Virus record (IMG/VR): IMGVR_UViG_3300023109_000164
Span: 1 to 22,051 of that record
Source of the DNA: a virus
Strand: one strand, 5' to 3'
Length of the DNA: 22,051 bases
Part shown: piece by piece, positions 930 to 22,051 of the stretch
How the letters are laid out: the number at the start of each line of letters is the position of its first letter
Numbering within the stretch: position 1 is the first letter of the stretch
Program-made: the position numbers and the translations under genes
The notes under the pieces: model-generated
What the model saw: the letters and a program-made list of their open reading frames with translations, nothing else
What the model was told of the DNA's origin: nothing
Databases searched by the model: none

Positions 930-937
930 TATAAATA
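930..937 (+). promoter_or_regulatory. T4-type late promoter TATAAATA
   Basis: This is an exact match to the T4 late promoter core, recognised in T4 by the gp55 sigma factor with the gp33/gp45 coactivation system. It is 21 bases upstream of the ATG at 958 and directly follows the terminator hairpin. It would drive the 109-aa and 1298-aa genes. Confidence 0.8.
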
Positions 938-5249: not shown

Positions 5250-7547
5250 ATGTCAACAATTAAATTACGCCGTAGTTCGGTTGCTGGCCGAATTCCGACC
5301 ACCGCTCAGTTAGAGCTCGGTGAAATTGCTATCAACACTACTGATGGTAAATTATATTTTAAGAAATACGACGCTGTTGCTAATACGGAATCAATCATTG
5401 ACGTATCTGCAGATTTAGACGCAGCAGCAATCCTTTCACTTTTAACTGGAGTTGACGGCGCAGGTTCAAACCTTGATGCTGACCTCCTTGATGGTGAGGA
5501 AGGATCTTATTATTTAGATTGGGGAAACTTTACGAATACGGCTACAGGTGTAGTCGCAAATACGTATGGTTCTTCAACAGAAATTCCAGTTCTTACAATA
5601 GATGCTGATGGCAGAATCACAACAGCCAATACAACTGCGGTTGCCGGCGTTGATGATTTTACATATGACGCAGCCAACAACCAATTGGCCCTTACAACTG
5701 GTGATGGTACTGTATATAACTTATTCTTAAATCAATTTAAAGATTTAGTTGTTGAAGATCTTACCGCTAACTCAATTAACATTGATACGCTTGGCTTTGA
5801 CGCATTAGACGTCGCTGGTGATATTAGTGCAAACAATGGATTCTTCGCAGGAGACATTACAGTTGATGGCGTAGTTAAATCTGATTTAACAGTTACCCTT
5901 ACAGGCGATGTTACTGGTACAACAACTTCTAACACAGGAATTGTTTCTGTTGTAACTGATATTGCGGCATCAGGTGTTACTGCAAATACATATGGCTCTG
6001 CAACCGCCATCCCAGTTGTCACAGTTGCCGCCGATGGTCGTATCACAAATGCAACAACAACTCCAGTTGCCGGCGTTGATAGTTTTACTTATGCTGCTGC
6101 CAATAACACAATTACATTAGAAACCGGAGACGGTTCTGTATTTCATATCGCAACTGAAACAGAAGTTACTCTTACAGGTGATGTTACAGGAACTGCAACC
6201 GCAACCGACGGTAATCTTTCAATAGCCGCTGATATAGCCAACTCAGGGGTCACTGCAGGCTCGTATGGATCATCTTCGCAAATTCCAGTTGTTACTGTTG
6301 GCCTTGACGGGCGCATCACTTCTATGTCTAATACGGCTGTTGCGGGTGTTGATGATGTATCCTGGGTGTCTGCAAATAGTACTTTAATTATTGAAACCGG
6401 AGACGGATCATCATACTTTACAACTATTGATACATTCGATGAAATCACAATGGTTGGAAACGGAACTGTTGACGGAAGAGATCTTTCTGTTGATGGTGCT
6501 AAACTTGACTTAATAGAAGACGGCGCTACCGCAGATCAAACCGCAGCAGAAATTCTTGCAGCATTGTTAACTGTTGACGGTGATGGGTCAGGTTTAGACG
6601 CAGATACTGTTGATGGATATTCCGCTGCTGAAATTTTAGATGCCGCGGCAAATAATGCTCAATCATTGGTCGGTGCGGGTGATGTTACTATCACGGCAAA
6701 CAATGGCTTGATTGGCGTAGCTGAGTTTAATGTTAATACTTCAAATACTGAAAACTTTTCAATATCACACGCAGATACTTCAAGTGTTGCTAACGTTGCT
6801 AATTCAGACGGCAACGTATTACAAGATATTGGGTTTGATACTTTTGGGCACGTGCAATCAGTTGCATCAGTAGATCTTGACGGACGTTACTATACTGAAA
6901 CAGAAACAGATGGATTTTTAGTATTAAAAGCTGATAAGACTATTGCAATTACTGCAGGCACTGCATTAACTGGCGGCGGTACACTCGGCGCAAATATGAC
7001 TATTAATCACGGGGATACTTCATCACAAGCAAACCTAGCATTTGCAAATACAGGTTTAAATCCTGAATTTATTGATGCAATAAATTTTGATGACCACGGC
7101 CACGTCTTATCAATTGTTAAAGGTATCAGACAGTATTTAGATACTGCAACCGCAGACGCAAGATATGTTAATGTAACAGGCGACACGATGTCTGGAGTAT
7201 TAACGGTTAATGCAAATATCAACCAAACAAACTCTACGCATTTTGATGCAAGCGTTACAACAACTGCAACAACGCAGGCAACCGTATACGCGTTCCCACA
7301 TGCATCTTACGGTGGTGCAGAGATTACAATTACTGCGTCAAGTGGCAGTAATCGTCATGTAACTAAGCTTTTGGTTACACACGACGGCTCTACTGCAATC
7401 GCAACAGAATATGGTGTTGTCTATACAAATACAGAATTAGCAACATATGATGTATCAATTTCTGGTCCTGTCTTGCTTATTCAAGCAACTCCTGCTTCTG
7501 CAAGTTCTACGAAGTTCCAAACCTTTGGGCAGCTTGCCAAAGTATAA
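5250..7547 (+). CDS. Tail fibre with KLRRS-type (Mtd-like) N-terminal domain (765 aa)
   Basis: The N-terminus 'KLRRSSVAGRIPTTAQLELGE' followed by 'AINTTDGKLYFKK' (residues 5-39) is the widespread phage fibre N-terminal domain related to the Bordetella phage Mtd N-domain. It is probably used for attachment to the virion. Then come 'LDADLLDG' and 'LDADTVDGYSAAEIL' motifs and three copies of a 54-residue 'YGSxxxIPVxTxxxDGRIT...AGVD' module (residues 103-156, 245-298, 336-389). Copies of 'VTLTGDVTGT' precede the second and third. The C-terminal ~80 residues (HVTKLLVTHDGSTAIATEYG, then a LATYDVSISGPVLLIQATP segment) resemble a terminal domain seen in other marine phage fibres. No S74 domain is present. 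The start has AAAGGGA (5236-5242) 7 bases upstream. The stop codon lies inside a late promoter for the next gene. Confidence 0.87.
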   Translation: MSTIKLRRSSVAGRIPTTAQLELGEIAINTTDGKLYFKKYDAVANTESIIDVSADLDAAAILSLLTGVDGAGSNLDADLLDGEEGSYYLDWGNFTNTATGVVANTYGSSTEIPVLTIDADGRITTANTTAVAGVDDFTYDAANNQLALTTGDGTVYNLFLNQFKDLVVEDLTANSINIDTLGFDALDVAGDISANNGFFAGDITVDGVVKSDLTVTLTGDVTGTTTSNTGIVSVVTDIAASGVTANTYGSATAIPVVTVAADGRITNATTTPVAGVDSFTYAAANNTITLETGDGSVFHIATETEVTLTGDVTGTATATDGNLSIAADIANSGVTAGSYGSSSQIPVVTVGLDGRITSMSNTAVAGVDDVSWVSANSTLIIETGDGSSYFTTIDTFDEITMVGNGTVDGRDLSVDGAKLDLIEDGATADQTAAEILAALLTVDGDGSGLDADTVDGYSAAEILDAAANNAQSLVGAGDVTITANNGLIGVAEFNVNTSNTENFSISHADTSSVANVANSDGNVLQDIGFDTFGHVQSVASVDLDGRYYTETETDGFLVLKADKTIAITAGTALTGGGTLGANMTINHGDTSSQANLAFANTGLNPEFIDAINFDDHGHVLSIVKGIRQYLDTATADARYVNVTGDTMSGVLTVNANINQTNSTHFDASVTTTATTQATVYAFPHASYGGAEITITASSGSNRHVTKLLVTHDGSTAIATEYGVVYTNTELATYDVSISGPVLLIQATPASASSTKFQTFGQLAKV
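5556..5717 (+). repeat. 54-aa 'YGS-DGRIT' module, copy 1 of 3
   Basis: Encodes ANTYGSSTEIPVLTIDADG through TGDGTVY in the 765-aa fibre. It is gap-free relative to the other two copies. Confidence 0.85.
5982..6143 (+). repeat. 54-aa 'YGS-DGRIT' module, copy 2 of 3
   Basis: Encodes ANTYGSATAIPVVTVAADG through TGDGSVF. It is preceded by VTLTGDVTGT, as is copy 3. Confidence 0.85.
6255..6416 (+). repeat. 54-aa 'YGS-DGRIT' module, copy 3 of 3
   Basis: Encodes AGSYGSSSQIPVVTVGLDG through TGDGSSY. It is the most diverged of the three copies. Confidence 0.85.
7523..7542 (+). other. Hairpin at the 3' end of the 765-aa fibre gene
   Basis: CTTT (7523-7526) and GGCA (7528-7531) pair with TGCC (7535-7538) and AAAG (7539-7542) around loop GCT, with one bulged G. 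It lies inside the last codons and abuts the late promoter. There is no T-tract, so if functional it is more likely an RNA 3'-end stabiliser or weak terminator. Confidence 0.4.
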
Positions 7548-7550
7548 ATA
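7543..7550 (+). promoter_or_regulatory. T4-type late promoter TATAAATA overlapping a stop codon
   Basis: An exact late promoter core. The TAA stop of the 765-aa fibre (7545-7547) is inside it. It lies 34 bases before the GTG start of the giant fibre, a suitable distance for a late transcript leader. Confidence 0.78.
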
Positions 7551-16500: not shown

Positions 16501-16937
16501 ATACATTTTATTACACCAACCCAGCAAGCACTTCACGTATGAATGCAATTAGCGCATACGGTGAAATTCGCTCAGATGAAAACATTATTGCTTACTACGA
16601 TTATTCTGATATTCGTTGGAAGGAAAATGTTAAAATTATTGATAATGCCGTAGATAAAGTTAAGCAACTCGATGGTATTACATATAACTATATTGACCGT
16701 GAAGGTGAATATACTGGTGTAATTGCGCAACAAGTTGAAAAAGTTCTTCCTGGTGTCGTATATGATACCGAAGATATGAAAACTGGTAAAGAACGTAAAG
16801 GTGTTCGTTACGGTAATATGGTAGGCCTATTGATTGAAGCTACAAAAGAGCAGCAAGAAACAATAGAAAAACAACAAGAAGAGATTGACAAACTAAAAGA
16901 AATGGTATATAATCTAATGGAAAAGTTAGATAAATAA
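7584..16937 (+). CDS. Giant modular tail fibre with C-terminal S74 chaperone (3117 aa)
   Basis: An uninterrupted 9.35-kb frame. The N-terminal region has 'LDADLLDG' and 'FDADTVDG' modules and a 'VLIADNLLTLNSN' module. From about residue 353 to 2984 an 'APIFYDSxNTxYYxxPASTS' motif recurs about 21 times at irregular spacing. Larger units between these also repeat: 'DDYxxHRGDxxTYxGF' three times, 'GMYxxxxxVLxF' twice, a ~97-residue 'TGDYGSI...NEW...ENGY' unit twice, and 'GLLGSTGSW / GFLDNDGNW' twice. Two non-repeat domains stand out, at about 1503-1633 and 2553-2713. The C-terminus is an S74 chaperone: SDIRWKEN (Ser3008, Asp3009, Lys3013), GVIAQQVEKVLPGVV, VRYGNMVGLLIEATKEQ, then a coiled coil to the end. 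Predicted self-cleavage would leave a ~3008-aa fibre. It is very probably a trimeric host-recognition fibre. It is much longer than T4 gp37 (about 1000 aa). Confidence 0.9.
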   Translation: MANDKQFIVKNGLLTQENVVIGSTTDTGEKLQVTGTTKATGQVEITQATASPSLTVKNTNNTLYDQFIEFEGRTSSLVLRDIGDGDYGWYNTSGATEIKFNNNAGNGLEFYVGNNSKFQLTTTQADFKVDPTVNGSTIWYADNDGTGSGLDADLLDGVEGASFVRSDEDDTMSGSYVITGNLTVQGTTTTVNSETVLIADNLLTLNSNFTSGTPTENAGWEVLRGNLNSSSLQWDETNDWFKLISAGTDLGRIITTADEGSGNGFDADTVDGLEAEQFLRADADDTATGNITIEQVLTIGNDSGPARINFDGNGTNRSIYSTAGNIGFTNNSLSWSAYSDTSDNWRVTNDIYAKRFLDSDDNTFLVDPASTSKVNNIELDGNLSGTGGNTNDYITFASSTVQTHIDNIVRWTVGLTENVSDVIIKAPAYYDSNDITYFLDPAGDSELKTILLDDYIIHRGDTDTYMGFDAADAMTFVTGGTERFNLDNDSADFSVNVYAPKFIDSNNNTYFLDPGATSGPSLVVSQQIQGDDGTAGIPGYGFEAGTSTGMYRSSADVLAFTQGGVNRFFVGYSGGAANWSLLDMRAPRFVDSDNTAYYADPASDSQMNTIDIDDYVRHRGDITTYIGFPTNGQISTFTNGAERMRTTDTLTYFDQNVSIGTTSNAYTLDVYHATLDTVARFKSGDNRASIAVSDDDTTAYVLAENSLAHFGMTSFIDEANLVINADGNVGIGTVTPNEANLNLSTRSAATNNPFASGNKLLSLQDNDTEKSYWALDNSSNVWIIGNGEYLFSTTGANIGVTIDAGNGELVIGDQSGTYSTMDGAYEGVSIAATPSPSANKLHVNGSVQLNSQTDVFAISAADSGNANINAATFLGVNELGFSAGGGFFMDDTTTIKTRGNKNIQTTGDMYAGRFYDDDDNNYYVDPAGDSQLNTIDIDDYIRHRGDTNTYIGFEADDTFRIWTGGTQRFNIDNNSADFAVNVYAPIYFDSNNNTYYGDFGNTDVSIKMAGEILGGNGALATPTYAFNSQANSGMYKYATNVLGFAANGNDEFRVYSDHTLSVGSSRAPIFYDSDNTAYYTNPASTSYLYNAYIKGGHDDTRLQLWYPSSTAANEAFLTLWASEPGLTYHGAGIGSNIDFNGQYYGRETAGQPYGVYLRFRPDIGEASLNTTIGTPDTAGAAQIKHFYVQASGDAFARVSYRAPIFYDSNNTAFYTDPASTSIHNVQRAQQFQVDSATYTIDGVTGDYGSIKVSGDTNAYAGYAINDDWVFMANGSSSMGLYNDTRNEWVLEATDNSWTRLYANGVHQIGAENGYGYAPNQMRAPIFYDSDNTGFFANFAAGNTSTAISVNGQISRSGFATGDVTTNKYLVAEDRNHWIWTPTNNWGIFWATTTSSLAHFGSANPNEITFVGNGDIKASIDLDSGNFYAKGEGTFSNIRISGGNEDLPLLKSYGSGLADTVLFDGTMYWEKRVIQAMQGTEDSATTNTADFVKSGIAPVASSYIIRTNGYRTFVSDYIEVEPGEELYGEIAARYVSGSGSTLYFGIERFDKNKVPIAANTGTTYFVASNANVSSTSWTTYSGHTTIPTTHTPFSGSDGEGVKYVRIRLLMNYQTTGALREFGPPILKRTQVHSRLRSSNIYAPIFYDSDDNNYYLDPASTSKLNQVDASNFRDRDNTAYFMNPASGGKVAGSWDWTNGSIENLNNLSFNDPGPQEGIRWKSGNEWKIYESPNDLTTNAGGNLQFTSGTGAGTMRMRVESDGDVFAGNNMYAAAFIDTNNTSFSANPAGTSVFSKLHIGSTSNLGDGTDPDISTSIMQATSKVVTPKLVFLNDSAGDDNYIQHSDTNSAHTAAGQQMGAWFEFVGDKLGATTSNSAGLVASGLKSRYGQFENRLDAAIMYDYNNTGYYVDAASTSRLNTLRTNRLYPAYDNNSGVYIDYPTGDYGSIQVNGNGKGNYEGYSINGRYVFMSSDANNVGIYNDQDNEWMIYGARNAGVDLYYNGSVQLETENGYALARSQMRSPIFYDSNNTAYYGNFASTSNLNVLQTNSITNSGVATMNGLLYIDNVMDYDQTAITGLTNAPISTRNRDTSVGGTNRYLPLIHTTALYSSGYRTHMNMGLYKVASGWGDNNTGFYVALGGNDSYPTKHWKLTYGHLLYNSDGYVSQTGSFRAPIFYDSDNTGYYGNFASTSRMNVNRVNETEYWAGGQAHFYTADGNLRGYIQATELDDGHLKIATSGGEDIKFLDGGLDGQWNMIIRGDGDALTNRNHYAQAFYDRNDTARYLNPNGTSELGTVRADRFDMRDRGDFITFYGDDSTNHGIASRNNAGTASDDLRINTYGSIFINLDSNENNSNSADFRIGRHGGSTSSIDELGLFDVYGDSLYVYSAYSFRSPIFYDSNNTAYYGNFASTSVMNVLDVRGEVYNDGWFRNDTGGRGLYSTAHAMHWYATDDNYWDLAHNDDNASIGIRLRGTYDGTIRGYLYGESDNDFGLLGSTGSWRLRIVANDWVDIAGSSARAKIFYDRDNTGYYFDGASTSRSNYHRINNLYDSQERRYTAPNGGTYTTTTSSVTGAIRIRMPTNRFKSNTMLKFKVSVYEYSTGRTHEFLISGYNNNNTSQTWYNEAATQLTDDNRQAFTVRWGGNGTDNIVWIGETNTTWSYPQVHVQWVDVGYSGYSTNWGQDWIVDFVTSFNTITRTRTASLVYTLNNRDNWQYDLRGTLFYDNNNTGYYCDPASTSNFNLVLANRLRLDDGGVNGHIYTDDTYLDIAYGDTGAGGIRLYDSEDVLQGYWYANGSGEHGFLDNDGNWAVRVRTGTNSMLFYTDDNNEFQIHTTYTNSPGSSRAPIFYDSNDTGYFTNPNGTSQMDRISKLERLTFDSGPYIADAGNDNRLNFYCSDSDNGSFYFTESGGQGGRIYADDDGSIFALYHDNGEAILYADQDYITYIYYNGTWEGRTRSSYFEARGSFRGPLFYDQNNTFYYTNPASTSRMNAISAYGEIRSDENIIAYYDYSDIRWKENVKIIDNAVDKVKQLDGITYNYIDREGEYTGVIAQQVEKVLPGVVYDTEDMKTGKERKGVRYGNMVGLLIEATKEQQETIEKQQEEIDKLKEMVYNLMEKLDK
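11313..11600 (+). repeat. ~97-aa fibre unit, copy 1
   Basis: Encodes residues 1244-1339: TGDYGSIKVSG, GYAINDDWVFM, GLYNDTRNEW, ENGYGY, ending in an FYDSDNTGFF motif. It is homologous to 13398-13688. Confidence 0.85.
13398..13688 (+). repeat. ~97-aa fibre unit, copy 2
   Basis: Encodes residues 1939-2035: TGDYGSIQVNG, GYSINGRYVFM, GIYNDQDNEW, ENGYAL, ending in an FYDSNNTAYY motif. It is one residue longer than copy 1. Confidence 0.85.
16605..16610 (+). other. Predicted S74 self-cleavage site of the giant fibre
   Basis: Ser3008 (16605-16607) and Asp3009 (16608-16610) lie in SDIRWKEN, with Lys3013 five residues after Ser as in the endosialidase-type Ser-Lys dyad. Cleavage would release the ~109-residue chaperone. 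Prediction from family only. Confidence 0.65.
16929..16936 (+). promoter_or_regulatory. Late-promoter-like GATAAATA
   Basis: One base from TATAAATA. It overlaps the last two codons and stop (16935-16937) of the giant fibre and sits 31 bases before the next ATG. It could start a late transcript for the two small paralogues. It could equally be chance from an Asp-Lys-stop ending. Confidence 0.5.
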
Positions 16938-16966: not shown

Positions 16967-17347
16967 ATGGCTTTTACATACGAATGGTCAGTGACCAACC
17001 TTAAGGTTAAGGATCAAGTTAACTCAGAAGGTGCTACTTTAACAAATGCAGTAGTTCAAACTTACTGGAAAGTAATTGGTACTGACGAAAATGGCAATAC
17101 TGCAGAATTTTCTGGTGCAACACCGTTTACAGCAGAAAACGTTCCAGCAGGTACATTCACAGCGTTTGCAGATTTAACTGAAGCTAATGTTTTGGCTTGG
17201 ATCCAAAACGTAGTCAATTCAGATGCAGGATATAAAGCGCATATTGACGAACGCCTTCAGTTTGAAATTGACAAAGACCAAGTAACTGAAGTTGAATCTG
17301 ATTCACTTCCGTGGGCGACTGGTGGTGACGCCGAAGCTCCAGAATAA
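16967..17347 (+). CDS. Small conserved phage protein, paralogue 1 (126 aa)
   Basis: An acidic 126-residue soluble protein of unknown function. It has no signal peptide or membrane segment. The pattern is YEWSVTNLKVKDQVNSEG, TLTNAVVQTYWKVIGTDENG, then TAFADLTEANVLAWIQNVV and an acidic tail. It aligns along most of its length with the 110-aa protein encoded next to it. Proteins of this kind occur next to structural genes in marine T4-like phages and are usually left as unknown-function families. CGGAGAA (16953-16959) is a good ribosome site. Context suggests a virion-associated or fibre-assembly role, which is inference. Confidence 0.8.
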   Translation: MAFTYEWSVTNLKVKDQVNSEGATLTNAVVQTYWKVIGTDENGNTAEFSGATPFTAENVPAGTFTAFADLTEANVLAWIQNVVNSDAGYKAHIDERLQFEIDKDQVTEVESDSLPWATGGDAEAPE

Positions 17348-17364: not shown

Positions 17365-17697
17365 ATGGAATATACTTGGAAAATTATAAAGTATAGTACT
17401 AGGGACGAGGTAAACGCTGATGGCGTTACTCTTTCAGATTCTGTTGTGTTAGTAGATTGGAAAAAAACCGGTACTGCGCTCAACGGCGTGTCTTCACGAT
17501 ATTTAGGAACAACTGAAATTTCGGCTGCTAATACAACTGCAGCCGATTTTGTTCCCTTAACGGATATTACTGAAGATAATTTAATTGAGTGGGTTAAAGA
17601 TGCTTTATCCGACGAAGACGAATATTTAATAAATGAAACTTTAGCTAAAAAAATTACAAAGAAAAACGACGTAAAACACCAAGCGGCTTTTAGCTAA
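17365..17697 (+). CDS. Small conserved phage protein, paralogue 2 (110 aa)
   Basis: A 110-residue paralogue of the preceding gene product. Shared positions include the opening 'YTW' (YEW in paralogue 1), 'DEVNADGVTLSDSVVLVDWK', 'GT', and 'DITEDNLIEWVKDAL', with a different, Lys-rich C-terminal tail (KKITKKNDVKHQAAFS) in place of the acidic one. AAGGAG (17346-17351) overlaps the upstream stop and precedes ATG 17365 by 13 bases; GAGAGGT (17349-17355) is closer. Function is unknown. The acidic/basic tail contrast could mean that the two proteins interact, but that is speculation. Confidence 0.78.
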   Translation: MEYTWKIIKYSTRDEVNADGVTLSDSVVLVDWKKTGTALNGVSSRYLGTTEISAANTTAADFVPLTDITEDNLIEWVKDALSDEDEYLINETLAKKITKKNDVKHQAAFS

Positions 17698-17727: not shown

Positions 17728-18768
17728 ATGCACGAATTGCATACAGGTGGCCTAGTTAAATACGCATTACGTAGAGGCGGATCTATTCATCCAGTCATTG
17801 TCCCGGAGTCGGTTTTAGGTAACCAAACTGGGACAATGAATCCATCTATCTTTGTTCATAAAGATAAAATTCTTATGAACTTGCGGCATATCAATTATAT
17901 TTTATATCATAGCGAAGGTAAAAAGTTTCCTCATACGTGGGGTCCTTTGGTATATGTACATCCACAAAACGACGTAACATTAACTACCTATAATGTTATG
18001 TGCGAGTTTGATTTAAATTTAAATTTGGTGGCTGCCGGCAGAGTTAATACTTCTGACTTTGATACTAAACCAACCTGGAACTTTATCGGTTTAGAAGATG
18101 CTCGTTTATTCAGTTGGGATGACAAGCTTTATCTTTGTGGTGTACGTAGAGATTGCTATGATGATAAAGGTAAAGGCCGGATGGAAATGGCTGAAATAGA
18201 ATTTCACAACAATGAATGGAAAGAAGTATCTCGTAATCCAATTCCAGCGCCAGGAGATGATAGCAGCTATTGTGAAAAGAATTGGATGCCAATTAATGAT
18301 ATGCCTTATCATTTTGTTAAGTGGTCAAATCCAACGCAGGTAGTACATTTTGACATTGAAAATAAAGTTACTACTGATGTAACTCTTAAAACAATGGAAG
18401 AAAGGTTTCCATTAGACAAAGACCTTCGTGGCGGGTCTCAAGTTATTCGTATAAATGAAAACCGTCGGATGTGTTTAGCCCATGAAACAAATTTGTTAAA
18501 AGATCCGTTTAACAGAAAAGACGGAAATTATGCTCACCGCGTTGTAATATATGATAACGATTGGAATATTACAAATGTTTCGCGTGAATTCCATTTCTTA
18601 GGTACTTATTATGATCACGTAAAAGGCCAAGATTATAATATTGAATTTTGTACTGGTGTTGCGGCTGTTGGTGATGATTTGTTAATATCTTTTGGTTTAT
18701 CAGATAATGTGTCTTACATACTAAAAATTCCAACAGGTGTGTTTTTTGATTTTGTATCTAAAGGATGA
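17728..18768 (+). CDS. Beta-propeller protein, glycosidase/glycoside-phosphorylase-like (346 aa)
   Basis: A soluble 346-residue protein with the blade pattern of five-bladed beta-propeller carbohydrate enzymes (GH130/GH43/GH32-like). Visible motifs are NPSIFVHKDKILMNLR, GLEDARLFSWDDKLYL (residues 121-136, Glu123 and Asp124 as candidate acidic residues), EKNWMP (183-188), GGSQVIRINENR (235-246), YAHRVV (~268) and EFCTGVAAVGDDLLISFG (306-323). The EDAR motif is the strongest link to this fold; the exact family and whether it hydrolyses, phosphorolyses or only binds glycans cannot be decided from sequence by eye. GGAGGT (17719-17724) sets the start. The stop is 3 bases before the next ATG, marking an operon with two other sugar-related genes. 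It may trim or bind a surface glycan (inference). Confidence 0.72.
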   Translation: MHELHTGGLVKYALRRGGSIHPVIVPESVLGNQTGTMNPSIFVHKDKILMNLRHINYILYHSEGKKFPHTWGPLVYVHPQNDVTLTTYNVMCEFDLNLNLVAAGRVNTSDFDTKPTWNFIGLEDARLFSWDDKLYLCGVRRDCYDDKGKGRMEMAEIEFHNNEWKEVSRNPIPAPGDDSSYCEKNWMPINDMPYHFVKWSNPTQVVHFDIENKVTTDVTLKTMEERFPLDKDLRGGSQVIRINENRRMCLAHETNLLKDPFNRKDGNYAHRVVIYDNDWNITNVSREFHFLGTYYDHVKGQDYNIEFCTGVAAVGDDLLISFGLSDNVSYILKIPTGVFFDFVSKG

Positions 18769-18771
18769 TAA

Positions 18772-20010
18772 ATGAGTAATATTCAACAACTCTTAAATGA
18801 CTTTGTTATGGATTACAAAAATCCATTTAAAATGTATGAACTTGCAAAAGAATATGATAAATTAGATCAAGACGCCGCCGCCCTTACTTATTATTTAAGA
18901 GCCGCTGAGTTTTGTGATGGCAAAACATACAATGAAAAACTACTTCAATATAGAGCTTTGATTATGGGAGCAAAGTGCTTTGCAGATCAAAAAAATAGAC
19001 AAGTAACGGTTTACAGTTTATTAAAAATGGCAATCACGGTTCTACCGAACAGACCTGAAGCTTATTATTTTATGTGTGATTATTGCGAGGAAAACGGGGA
19101 ATGGCGTGAATCTTTAGTTCATTCAACAATCGGATTATTGTTTGCTGACATAGAGTTAAGTATAGGTGATGATGATATTAATTATCCAGGAAAACAAGGA
19201 TTGATATATCACAATGCGTCAGGAAGCTGGAAAGATAATGGTACTGATGAATCAAAACGTTTACTTTTTAATATGGCCTACGATAATAATGTAGAAACTG
19301 AATGGAAAAATAAAGCTATAGGATGGCTAAATAACATAGGTTACCCAAGCTATATTCCATACGAAGGAGACGTAGAAAAATATAAGTTTCCATTTCCTGG
19401 TATTGAAAAGATCACAAATAATTATGCAAGACATTATCAAGATATGTTTGTGTTATCTGCATTGGATGGAAAAGAAAACGGTTTATGGGTAGAAGTTGGA
19501 TCCGGGTTACCATATAAAGCAAACAACACTGCATTGCTTGAGGACACGTTTAATTGGAAAGGATTGTCTATTGACAATTCAGAAAGAGCTTGTTATAATT
19601 ATTCCGAGGAAAGAAAAAGCACTATAGTTATGGCAGACGGTAAGGATATTCATTATGCTTCAATGTTTAAACAAAGTTGCATGACAGATTGGATTGACTT
19701 TTTAAGAATTAATGCAGAGCAAGTATCGCTTGAAGTATTAAAGAAAATACCTTTTGGCCAACACGAATATGGGGTAATTCAATTTCAGCATAATGCGTGT
19801 TGGTGGGGTCCTGAGTTTAGAGAAGAATCAAGAGCATACCTTAAAGGAATAGGATATGTGTTAGCTGTAAACGACGTGTCTATGGATCCTTCTTCTAATT
19901 ATGAAGATTGGTGGCTGCATCCACAAATAGCACAACAAAAACCAAACATGGTTATAAACGGCCACCCTGACAAAAAGAACTTTATATATGATTATGTAAT
20001 GAAGGAGTAG
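18772..20010 (+). CDS. TPR-like repeat plus FkbM-type methyltransferase protein (412 aa)
   Basis: Residues ~18-125 form three helix-turn-helix pairs of TPR character (YELAKEYDKLDQDAAALTYY; YRALIMGAKCF; NRPEAYYFMCDYCEENGEWRES). Residues ~235-360 look like an FkbM-type SAM-dependent methyltransferase: motif I LWVEVGSG (240-245 is VEVGSG), LSIDNSE (265-271), and DWIDFLRINAEQVSLEVL (306-323). In FkbM proteins the last motif normally reads IDxLKxDxEG; here Asp is Asn314 and Gly is Gln317, so activity is uncertain. AAAGGA lies directly before the start and overlaps the end of the upstream gene. The next start follows after 3 bases. The role may be O-methylation of a sugar or protein on the virion or host surface; this is inference. 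Confidence 0.7.
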   Translation: MSNIQQLLNDFVMDYKNPFKMYELAKEYDKLDQDAAALTYYLRAAEFCDGKTYNEKLLQYRALIMGAKCFADQKNRQVTVYSLLKMAITVLPNRPEAYYFMCDYCEENGEWRESLVHSTIGLLFADIELSIGDDDINYPGKQGLIYHNASGSWKDNGTDESKRLLFNMAYDNNVETEWKNKAIGWLNNIGYPSYIPYEGDVEKYKFPFPGIEKITNNYARHYQDMFVLSALDGKENGLWVEVGSGLPYKANNTALLEDTFNWKGLSIDNSERACYNYSEERKSTIVMADGKDIHYASMFKQSCMTDWIDFLRINAEQVSLEVLKKIPFGQHEYGVIQFQHNACWWGPEFREESRAYLKGIGYVLAVNDVSMDPSSNYEDWWLHPQIAQQKPNMVINGHPDKKNFIYDYVMKE

Positions 20011-20013
20011 ACT

Positions 20014-20787
20014 ATGAAAATTGTTATTGTTACTGGTGGATTTGACCCAGTCCACTCAGGCCATATTGAATATTTTAAAGCTGCAGCTGCGCTAGGAGAT
20101 AGGCTTTGGGTTGGTGTTAACAGTGATGAATGGTTGTCACGTAAAAAAGGTAGGCCATTTATGCCTATAGAAGAACGCACAGCAATCATAGAAGCTTTAT
20201 CAGTTGTTGACTGCGTATTTGAATTTGACGATAGTGATGATACTGCTGTAGGTGCTATAAGACAGGTAAGAGAACAATTTCCTGATGCTGAAATTGTATT
20301 TGCAAACGGAGGGGACCGCCAAAAAGGCACGACACCTGAAGTTGAATATGCAAAGGAATTGATTGAAGAAGGCAAAATTGTTTTTGTGTTTGGTGTTGGC
20401 GGAAACGATAAAAAGAATAGCTCGTCGTGGCTTCTTGAAAACTGGGATAAGCCTGAGGTACAAAGACTGTGGGGTAAATATCGTAACCTTGATAACAACG
20501 GTCATTGGCAAGTTAAAGAACTGTCTATTGATGTTAAAAAATCACTTTCAGACCAAAAGCATTTTGTTCGCTCAGAACATTGGCACATCGTTGATGGCAA
20601 ACTTGAAATGAATCTTGAGTTTCCAAATGGATATAAGACTTCAAAAGTTTATTCCACAGGAGACAGTATTGATATTCCACCATGTACTTGGCATAAAGCA
20701 ATTAACGTAGGTAAAAATCCAGTTAAAGTGATTGAAGTATGGATGGGTGGTTTATTATCAGAGGATGACATAGAACGGCGAGATTAA
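20014..20787 (+). CDS. Nucleotidyltransferase-cupin fusion for activated-sugar synthesis (257 aa)
   Basis: Residues 1-150 are a TagD/HldE/RfaE-type nucleotidyltransferase: GGFDPVHSGHIEYF with the HxGH signature His14-Ser-Gly-His17, EERTAIIEALSVVD, and KKNSSSWLLENW near the place of the C-terminal ISSTR-like motif. Members join a nucleotide to glycerol-3-phosphate, heptose-1-phosphate or similar. Residues ~170-257 match the cupin of type II mannose-6-phosphate isomerase / GDP-mannose pyrophosphorylase: SEHWHIVDGK (His189, His191 as metal ligands), IDIPPCTWHKAIN (His227), VIEVWMGG, and the end motif EDDIERRD. Such enzymes usually carry this cupin after a mannose nucleotidyltransferase, so the pairing is unusual. 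AAGGAG (20002-20007) overlaps the upstream stop. Substrate is not known. Confidence 0.85.
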   Translation: MKIVIVTGGFDPVHSGHIEYFKAAAALGDRLWVGVNSDEWLSRKKGRPFMPIEERTAIIEALSVVDCVFEFDDSDDTAVGAIRQVREQFPDAEIVFANGGDRQKGTTPEVEYAKELIEEGKIVFVFGVGGNDKKNSSSWLLENWDKPEVQRLWGKYRNLDNNGHWQVKELSIDVKKSLSDQKHFVRSEHWHIVDGKLEMNLEFPNGYKTSKVYSTGDSIDIPPCTWHKAINVGKNPVKVIEVWMGGLLSEDDIERRD

Positions 20788-20809: not shown

Positions 20810-20817
20810 TATAAATA
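20810..20817 (+). promoter_or_regulatory. T4-type late promoter TATAAATA upstream of gene 13
   Basis: An exact late promoter core, 34 bases before the gp13 ATG and 15 bases after the hairpin. It would start a separate late transcript for the neck genes. Confidence 0.8.
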
Positions 20818-20850: not shown

Positions 20851-21594
20851 ATGGCTCAGCCTACCACCAAAGAAGAATTCAAAGACTACGTCCTTAGAAA
20901 ATTAGGTGCACCTGTTATTGAAATAAACGTGTCTGAAGAGCAGATAGACGATCGTGTAGATGAGGCTGTTTCTTTTTGGAGAGACTATCATTATAACGGG
21001 AGTCAACTTGTTTATTTAAAGCATGCTATCACGCAAGATGATATTGATAATGGTTACATTACACTTCCTACACGTCTTTTAGGTATATCAAAAGTATTTG
21101 ATTTACAGACTTCTATTAGTGCAGGCGTTGGAATGTTCAATGTTCAATACCAATATACTTTAAACAATATAAGAGATATTACTGGATATAATATTCAAAA
21201 CTATTATATGACTATGTCTTATATTGAGTTCTTACAAGAAATGCTTGTAGGGAAACCTTTAATCAGATTTAATAAACATGTGAATAAGCTATACGTTGAT
21301 GTTGACCAAAAGATTTGGACCGTCGGCGATTTCATTATTATTGAAGCTTACGATATTATTGACCCGGCGGAATATGCTGAAGTTTGGACAGATCGTTGGC
21401 TGCAAAATTATACTGCCGCTTTAGTAAAAGAAAATTGGGGTGCAAACCTTACCAAGTTTGTTGGAATGCAATTGGTTGGCGGTGTAACATTTAATGGCGA
21501 ACAAATTTTACAAGAAGCAAGAGAAGAACGCCAACGGATGGAAGAAGAAGCTGTTAATTCACTTCAACCACTTACGTATAATTTTATTGGATAA
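20851..21594 (+). CDS. 13: T4-like neck protein gp13 (head completion)
   Basis: A 247-residue protein recognised as the T4 gp13 neck/head-completion family, which with gp14 closes the DNA-filled head and joins it to the tail. Typical features are the N-terminal 'FKDYVLRKLGAPVIEINVSEEQIDDRVDEA' stretch (given here as description of residues 10-39: FKDYVLRKLGAP, then VIEINVSEEQIDDRVDEA), FWRDYHYNGSQ, ITLPTRLLGISKVF, and WTDRWLQNYTAALVKENWGANLTKF. T4 gp13 is about 309 aa, so this is a shorter, aquatic-phage-like version. TAGAGGT (20839-20845) precedes the ATG by 5 bases. The stop is 3 bases before the gp14 start. Confidence 0.92.
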   Translation: MAQPTTKEEFKDYVLRKLGAPVIEINVSEEQIDDRVDEAVSFWRDYHYNGSQLVYLKHAITQDDIDNGYITLPTRLLGISKVFDLQTSISAGVGMFNVQYQYTLNNIRDITGYNIQNYYMTMSYIEFLQEMLVGKPLIRFNKHVNKLYVDVDQKIWTVGDFIIIEAYDIIDPAEYAEVWTDRWLQNYTAALVKENWGANLTKFVGMQLVGGVTFNGEQILQEAREERQRMEEEAVNSLQPLTYNFIG

Positions 21595-21597
21595 GTT

Positions 21598-22051
21598 ATG
21601 GCAACGAACCCTTATTTCAGAAATTACGGTAACTTCAACGAGCAAAACTTAATTGACGATTTAGTTATCGAGTCAATTAAGATGTATGGTGTTGACGTTG
21701 CATACATACCAAGAAACTTTGACTCTATTGATAATATCCTAAACGAAGACGATACTTCAACCTTCGGTGGCGACTTAACAACACAAGGTGGTAATAACTA
21801 CAGTATCATTTACGATATGGAAATGTATGTTAAGAGTGTTGACGGATTTGAAGGTGAAGGAGATTTCCTAAGCAGGTTTGGTTTACAAATACGTGACCAA
21901 GTAACATTTACTGTTGCGTATAGAACGTTTGAACGTTTTGCCACTCGTTTAGATCCAGAACAAACAAGGCCAAACGAAGGCGATGTAATTTACTTTCCAC
22001 TTAACGATAAAATATTTAAAGTTATGTTTGTTGAACACGAGTCAGTATTTT
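21598..22051 (+). CDS. 14: T4-like neck protein gp14 (3' truncated by window end)
   Basis: 151 complete codons are visible before the window ends. The opening MATNPYFRNYGNFNEQNL, then LVIESIKMYGVDVAYIPRNF, FGLQIRDQVTFTVAYRTFE and DVIYFPLNDKIFKVMFVEHE, match the T4 gp14 neck protein family, partner of gp13 in the head-tail connector. The start ATG is 3 bases after the gp13 stop. The ribosome site is weak (GGATAAG), so translation is probably coupled to gp13. About half or more of the protein should be present compared with T4 gp14 (about 256 aa). Confidence 0.92.
   Translation, partial: MATNPYFRNYGNFNEQNLIDDLVIESIKMYGVDVAYIPRNFDSIDNILNEDDTSTFGGDLTTQGGNNYSIIYDMEMYVKSVDGFEGEGDFLSRFGLQIRDQVTFTVAYRTFERFATRLDPEQTRPNEGDVIYFPLNDKIFKVMFVEHESVF

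Follow-up and report, generated by a model that had tools for sequence, protein, structure and literature searches.

We describe a three-gene module in IMG/VR virus record IMGVR_UViG_3300023109_000164, a marine T4-like bacteriophage fragment whose entire 22,051 bases were analyzed (the window). Its genes, here called P1, P2, and P3, encode a predicted beta-mannosyl-transferring enzyme, a protein combining tetratricopeptide repeats (TPR) with an FkbM-type methyltransferase domain, and a nucleotidylyltransferase-cupin fusion (Table 1). Our preferred reading, to which we assign a probability of roughly 0.48, is that they form a late-expressed module that attaches a mannose-type glycan to a virion protein. 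This reading is based on the fold and residues of P1, the sugar-phosphate domains of P3, the synteny of the trio, the co-divergence of P1 and P2, and a late promoter box. It also draws on the neighbors of P1 and P2, which are fiber or tail genes and glycosyltransferases, on giant-virus propellers that lie in chains of glycan enzymes, and on the lack of membrane segments in the three proteins. All three proteins are compatible with mannose chemistry. The individual domains are known; what appears to be new is the P1 subfamily of phages, the pairing of P1 with P2, the fusion in P3, and their fixed place in the T4-like late region.

Predicted fold and active site of P1

AlphaFold modeling of P1 from an input alignment of 26 relatives revealed a confident propeller, with a predicted local distance difference test score (pLDDT) of 81 and a predicted template modeling score of 0.86. 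Foldseek searches with this model ranked GH130 mannoside phosphorylases at the top (1.3e-8), with Leishmania GT108 enzymes among the matches (8.7e-8). VIA-align gave Z scores of 20–23.5 to GH130 (3.5–4 Å over ~270 residues), ~17 to GT108, and ~16–17 to GH43. The beta-propeller that had been proposed for P1 from the sequence is thus borne out by the model and its fold matches, and the predicted structure belongs to the GH130/GT108-type five-bladed fold, with GH130 ranking above GH43. Alignment of the P1 profile to GH130 proteins from bacterial genomes using hhalign gave probabilities of 96–98%.

Profile-profile alignment placed N38, R53, E123-D124-A-R126, H252, and D326 of P1 on GH130 active-site positions; the unforced local hhalign alignment covered only the C-terminal blade or two, and the full-length register in blades 3–4 is unsure. 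N38, R53, E123, D124, and D326 were invariant or nearly so among 116 sequences, and P1 carries the −1 subsite and catalytic residues of GH130/GT108 (N, R, E-D, D). The equivalent residues of BT3780, namely N74, R89, E141, D142, and D363, serve in mannose binding or are required for activity (PMC4599007), and the role of the GH130 Glu-Asp pair is taken from the same work. The GH130 phosphorylase subgroup has three basic phosphate-binding residues. H252 falls on the GH130 His, at a position where the GH130 hydrolase subgroup has Glu, and this leans toward P1 being a phosphorylase or transferase rather than a hydrolase.

Window P1 showed no family match to Pfam (including PF04041), PHROG, or TIGR-type profiles, and its profile gave only chance matches when compared with solved structures by sequence alone. 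PF04041, the Pfam GH130 family, weakly matched 5 of 28 P1 relatives (best 1.3e-4). As it fails the PF04041 cut-off, P1 is placed as a relative of GH130 and not as a member. It resembles the GH130 beta-mannoside phosphorylases and mannosidases Teth514_1788, RaMP1, Uhgb_MP, and BT3780 in its full-length predicted propeller and active-site positions, but it is only 10–16% identical to these enzymes and its gene lies in a virion region beside a TPR-FkbM partner. The Leishmania GT108 mannosyltransferase/phosphorylases MPT-1, -2, and -4 have the same predicted fold and belong to a family that uses GDP-mannose or mannose-1-phosphate biosynthetically, although their context is a eukaryotic storage sugar and the Z score of P1 is lower than for GH130. 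In a viral structure library, the best matches of P1 were to an uncultured tailed phage and to giant viruses, and some of the P1-like propellers of giant viruses were located within long chains named fucosyltransferase, LicD, or polysaccharide pyruvyl transferase.

Domain composition of P2 and P3

The predicted model of P2 (pLDDT 86) pairs a TPR half with a Rossmann-type one, in agreement with the TPR-FkbM methyltransferase-like protein of the original prediction. Foldseek matched the C-terminal half to the Bud23 methyltransferase (1.1e-4), and Pfam Methyltransf_21 (FkbM, PF05050) matched 8 of 23 P2 relatives (best 4.7e-7). Window P2 itself had no PF05050 match, and its profile, compared with solved structures by sequence only, matched TPR proteins alone. 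P2 has the SAM-type (S-adenosylmethionine) fold common to FkbM-type methyltransferases (PF05050) but differs from them in its preceding TPR domain and in three residues: N314, Q339, and N341 were fixed in the 80 P2 sequences of the trio clade, at positions that hold D, E, and D in other P2 proteins. The glycines and the acid of the SAM motif were retained. With N/Q/N in place of D/E/D, which presumably have a catalytic role, methylation by trio-clade P2 is doubtful, and the chemistry of this branch may have been altered or lost.

For P3, the proposed nucleotidyltransferase-cupin fusion was confirmed, with both domains above their Pfam cut-offs. The N-terminal domain scored 55.6 bits against PF01467 (cytidylyltransferase-like; cut-off 21) and has the HxGH motif, and the cupin scored 80.5 bits against PF01050 (cut-off 23.6) and has the RxEHW / HxxxN / IEV signature. 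Near-invariant motifs in 92 sequences were H14-S-G-H17, R43-K-K-G46, G100-D101-R102 (GGDR), and K133-K-N-S-S-S138 in the N-terminal domain and R186-S-E-H-W190, H227, N231 (HxxxN), and I240-E-V...E250-D-D-I253 in the cupin. The N-terminal domain is cytidylyltransferase-like, as in RfaE domain II/HldE, but falls below the cut-off of the heptose-1-phosphate adenylyltransferase equivalog TIGR02199 (76.2 versus 181.5 bits). The C-terminal cupin is shared with type-II phosphomannose isomerase-GDP-mannose pyrophosphorylases (PMI-GMP; AlgA/ManC-like), except that in P3 the GMP domain is replaced by a different nucleotidylyltransferase; TIGR01479, the bifunctional PMI-GMP model, was matched only at model positions 356–460 of 467, with 71 versus 373 bits. 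The P3 query matched at least 594 viral contigs, of which the best 80 covered its full length. No phage record covered the entire fusion, and no P3 match was found in plasmids at 1e-20.

Conservation of the trio

All 76 loci found via P3 showed an identical order as far as the sequence reaches (DUF7936, DUF7936, P1, P2, P3, gp13, gp14), often with three small virion-type genes separating P3 from gp13. Since this set was selected by P3 itself, the synteny analysis was repeated with gp13 as the query, counting the 47 loci in which 3 kb or more of upstream sequence was available. P2 and P3 were located upstream in 43 of these, accompanied by P1 in 37; in the six loci with P2-P3 but no P1, the contig or locus probably ends first. 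None of the trio was present in the remaining 4. The trio is therefore a stable but dispensable trait. Dozens of contigs, which fall into 19 P1 clusters at 90% identity, share its order even where identity drops to ~59% for P1 and ~40% for P2, a recurrence beyond chance.

Two outcomes had been named as counting against a joint glycan pathway, namely genes mostly apart in related phages and profile searches pointing to unrelated functions. The gp13-based counts revealed the opposite of the former, and the assignments (P1 GH130/GT108-like, P2 FkbM-type, P3 a PMI-type cupin with a sugar-phosphate nucleotidylyltransferase) do not correspond to the latter.

Two of the four trio-less relatives (L184, L199, L200, and L201) encode a 141-aa nucleotidylyltransferase-like protein downstream of gp14. 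In many relatives, the fiber-gene position is occupied by a radical SAM protein, a cupin, and a 2-oxoglutarate (2OG)-Fe(II) oxygenase (L081:557-1585, L093:1537-1998, L108:1800-2363). The 2OG-Fe(II) oxygenase was a frequent neighbor (35 trio loci and 14 others), but these phages often carry such genes, so its proximity may be coincidence.

Putative late promoter box and operon structure

Of 26 distinct relatives, 21 have an exact copy of the T4-type late promoter box TATAAATA in the 90 nt ahead of the first DUF7936 gene, compared with ~1% of random 90-mers from the window. The other 5, among them the window (GATAAATA), have the box with a single mismatch. This agrees with the late timing that had been suggested. 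P1, P2, and P3 have no TATAAATA boxes of their own beyond chance, and gp13 has its own box; this arrangement supports a single late operon, DUF7936-DUF7936-P1-P2-P3. All three exact TATAAATA sites in the window (930-937, 7543-7550, and 20810-20817) lie 28–41 nt ahead of a same-strand gene start, and their number (n = 3) equals the chance expectation. Two perfect matches to TTGACA-17-TATAAT occur within 4.2 kb (16885-16913 and 19571-19599, the latter inside P2), and a few close relatives also have this promoter before DUF7936 with 0–1 mismatch.

The three trio open reading frames (ORFs) are real, lie on the + strand, and are separated by 3 nt from each stop to the next start, as first described. 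This spacing was dropped as a notable feature in itself: the gp13-gp14 gap is also 3 nt and the trio gap varies among relatives, so the gaps show tight packing and no special link. The placement between fiber and neck genes was correct, with the amendment that two paralogous DUF7936 genes separate the trio from the fiber-like ORF (3117 aa, with a terminal S74-type region). These tandem paralogues lie upstream of P1 at every trio locus whose sequence reaches that far. Distant DUF7936 relatives occur in Roseobacter phages CRP-227, CRP-5, and CRP-902, which together with locus L134 hint at a Rhodobacteraceae host. No RNA families were found.

Table 1. Features of the P1-P2-P3 locus and its surroundings in the window
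Feature	Position	Strand	Evidence or note
Putative sigma70-type promoter TTGACA-17-TATAAT, 12/12 consensus match	16885-16913	+	before DUF7936 protein 1
Putative late-type box GATAAATA, one mismatch	16929-16936	+	before DUF7936 protein 1
DUF7936 protein 1, 126 aa, first operon gene	16967..17347	+	Pfam PF25590 2.2e-13
DUF7936 protein 2, 110 aa, paralogue of DUF7936 protein 1	17365..17697	+	Pfam PF25590 7.5e-12
P1, 346 aa, predicted beta-mannosyl-transferring enzyme, GH130/GT108-type five-bladed propeller	17728..18768	+	AlphaFold, Foldseek, VIA-align, hhalign
P1 motif G121-L-E123-D124-A-R126	18088..18105	+	counterpart of GH130 G-x-E-D-P-R including catalytic Asp
P2, 412 aa, TPR + FkbM-type methyltransferase domain	18772..20010	+	
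P2 N-terminal TPR domain, residues 1-190	18772..19341	+	best matches TPR proteins, O-GlcNAc transferase included
P2 C-terminal FkbM-type methyltransferase fold, residues 200-412	19369..20010	+	Pfam in relatives, Foldseek
P3, 257 aa, nucleotidylyltransferase-cupin fusion	20014..20787	+	
P3 N-terminal nucleotidylyltransferase domain	20014..20433	+	PF01467 8.1e-15; PHROG 7878 1.4e-28
P3 C-terminal type-II phosphomannose-isomerase cupin	20452..20778	+	PF01050 1.4e-22
Predicted T4-type late promoter box TATAAATA, exact	20810-20817	+	before gp13; likely next transcription unit
gp13, head-tail adaptor Ad2, neighbor outside module	20851..21594	+	PHROG 211 2.3e-41
gp14, T4 neck protein, neighbor, truncated by window end	21598..22051	+	PF11649 7e-29

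P1-P2 as a unit in other phages

At essentially every P1 locus in several other phage groups, P1 is either fused to P2 (or to the TPR part of P2) or directly followed by it, and P1 was present in 66 of 73 loci found via P2, with a contig end accounting for three of the seven exceptions. P1 and P2 distances were correlated at 0.85, compared with 0.65 and 0.55 against gp13. P1-P2 is an older unit than the trio. Among the 28 non-trio P1 clusters (90% identity), ~20 had a gene of the fiber, sheath, tube, structural, or gp13-like kind no more than a few genes away.

In the cyanophages S-SCSM2R and DSL-LC02, the P1 and P2 genes are adjacent and overlapping (P1 42–48% identical), but no fused P3 follows them; S-SCSM2R has a P3-like nucleotidylyltransferase elsewhere. 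The DSL-LC02 pair is flanked by tail-fiber genes and annotated as beta-mannosyltransferase and FkbM. At one further locus (L137), P1-P2 is surrounded by collagen-like tail genes and a GT4 enzyme is encoded upstream, and another (L298) has P2 without P1 behind a collagen-like fiber, flanked by DUF4422 and a GT2-like enzyme. A literature search returned no description of the phage P1-P2 gene pair, which does not prove that none exists.

A stand-alone homologue of the P3 nucleotidylyltransferase (47–49% identical) lies between DNA polymerase and UvsX in four cyanophage loci (L174, L175, L176, and L177), the same niche as P1 in L038-L053, and is often beside a 2OG-Fe(II) oxygenase. Actinomycetia phage DSL-LC01 (L173:7451-8332) encodes a very distant P1 (23%), annotated as beta-mannosyltransferase, adjoining a methyltransferase and a TauD/TfdA dioxygenase. 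A bacterial origin was considered and set aside: a pattern-based scan of 84,980 genomes, which may miss distant relatives, yielded six P1 loci, all followed by P2. Several of these loci include phage genes and probably represent phage contigs that were binned into metagenome-assembled genomes.

Proposed function and alternative explanations

The original prediction, that the phage makes or edits a glycan on its own fibers or on the host surface, is partly supported by the three domain assignments, the conserved co-location, and the late box. The N/Q/N residues of trio-clade P2 speak against a simple methylation step. We infer the sugar, the reaction direction, and the acceptor as follows. The P3 cupin would supply mannose-6-phosphate from fructose-6-phosphate, a host mutase would make the sugar 1-phosphate, and the P3 nucleotidylyltransferase would activate it. 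P1, as a GH130/GT108-type inverting enzyme, would then transfer mannose or a manno-configured sugar from a sugar phosphate or nucleoside diphosphate sugar to an acceptor. The TPR domain of P2 may recognize this acceptor and the SAM-type domain may cap or shape the glycan; alternatively, trio-clade P2 may be mainly a targeting partner. The likeliest acceptor would be a co-made virion protein, either the adjoining huge fiber or the DUF7936 pair from the trio's own operon.

Several observations weigh against this proposal. The phosphate-binding arginines of GH130 were not confidently located in P1, where the alignment is unreliable, and the missing acidic residues of trio-clade P2 disfavor ordinary methyl transfer. 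P3 distances follow those of P1 and P2 weakly (0.41–0.42), and four gp13-chosen relatives do without the trio. Four clusters have P1 flanked by DNA polymerase and UvsX, at a distance from virion genes, so late timing is not universal across P1 loci.

The main rival, and a real one even though we consider it unlikely, is that the trio makes or changes a host lipopolysaccharide (LPS) or capsule sugar, so that sibling phages, or progeny fibers at release, would not find the receptor. PMI-type cupins and RfaE-type domains typically help to supply precursors for LPS and capsules, nucleotidyltransferase homologues of a cyanophage (S-SM2) lie in surface-polysaccharide-like clusters, and one P1-P2 neighbor (L139) has a GT25 (LPS-type) domain. 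However, no lipid-carrier enzyme, flippase, or polymerase adjoins the trio and its proteins have no membrane segment, although cytosolic LPS-type transferases would still be compatible with this; moreover, the fixed partners of the trio are virion genes, and its expression looks late, when a receptor change would be less useful. A role in carbon metabolism, with P1 as a mannoside phosphorylase degrading a glycan or solute from the host or the medium and P3 feeding mannose phosphate into metabolism, seems improbable. Most GH130 enzymes are phosphorylases with a degradative role (PMC4599007, PMC8950772) and the P1 fold matches GH130 better than GT108, but P2 with its TPR and FkbM domains, the same-chain neighbors in giant viruses, and the neighboring glycosyltransferases are biosynthetic or modifying, and the operon is late and lies among virion genes.

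It is quite improbable that the sugar is another manno-configured one, for example a heptose that P3 would make with its RfaE-type domain. The best named families for that domain are heptose 1-phosphate adenylyltransferases (TIGR02199 2e-21, PHROG 7878 1.4e-28), yet its TIGR02199 score is far below the cut-off, a heptose kinase or isomerase is absent from the operon, and the fused cupin is of the phosphomannose-isomerase type. Glycosylation of DNA or a small molecule, like the glucosyl-hydroxymethylcytosine of T4, would suit a T4-like phage and the P1 genes found between DNA polymerase and UvsX, but we regard it as very unlikely: the operon has no nucleotide-modifying gene and, to our knowledge, the P1 fold is unrelated to GT-B-type DNA glucosyltransferases.

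Module-dependent mannosylation of a virion protein might also be one case of a virus-wide glycosylation system, in which a GH130/GT108-type mannosyltransferase and a dedicated TPR-FkbM targeting partner modify fiber proteins, perhaps at residues pre-hydroxylated by the neighboring 2OG-Fe(II) oxygenase, parallel to collagen glycosylation, with giant-virus propellers serving their own glycans; we offer this extension as a speculation with little probability. The claim of a virion-directed module is testable, since the P1-P2 pair is present in cultured Synechococcus phages. If it is true, marine T4-like phages would devote late genes to sugar chemistry in a manner stable across the clade, and GH130/GT108-type enzymes would be phage machinery that Pfam and PHROGs do not recognize in the window proteins. 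Fiber glycans would then alter the sequence-based reading of host range, adsorption, and fiber stability.

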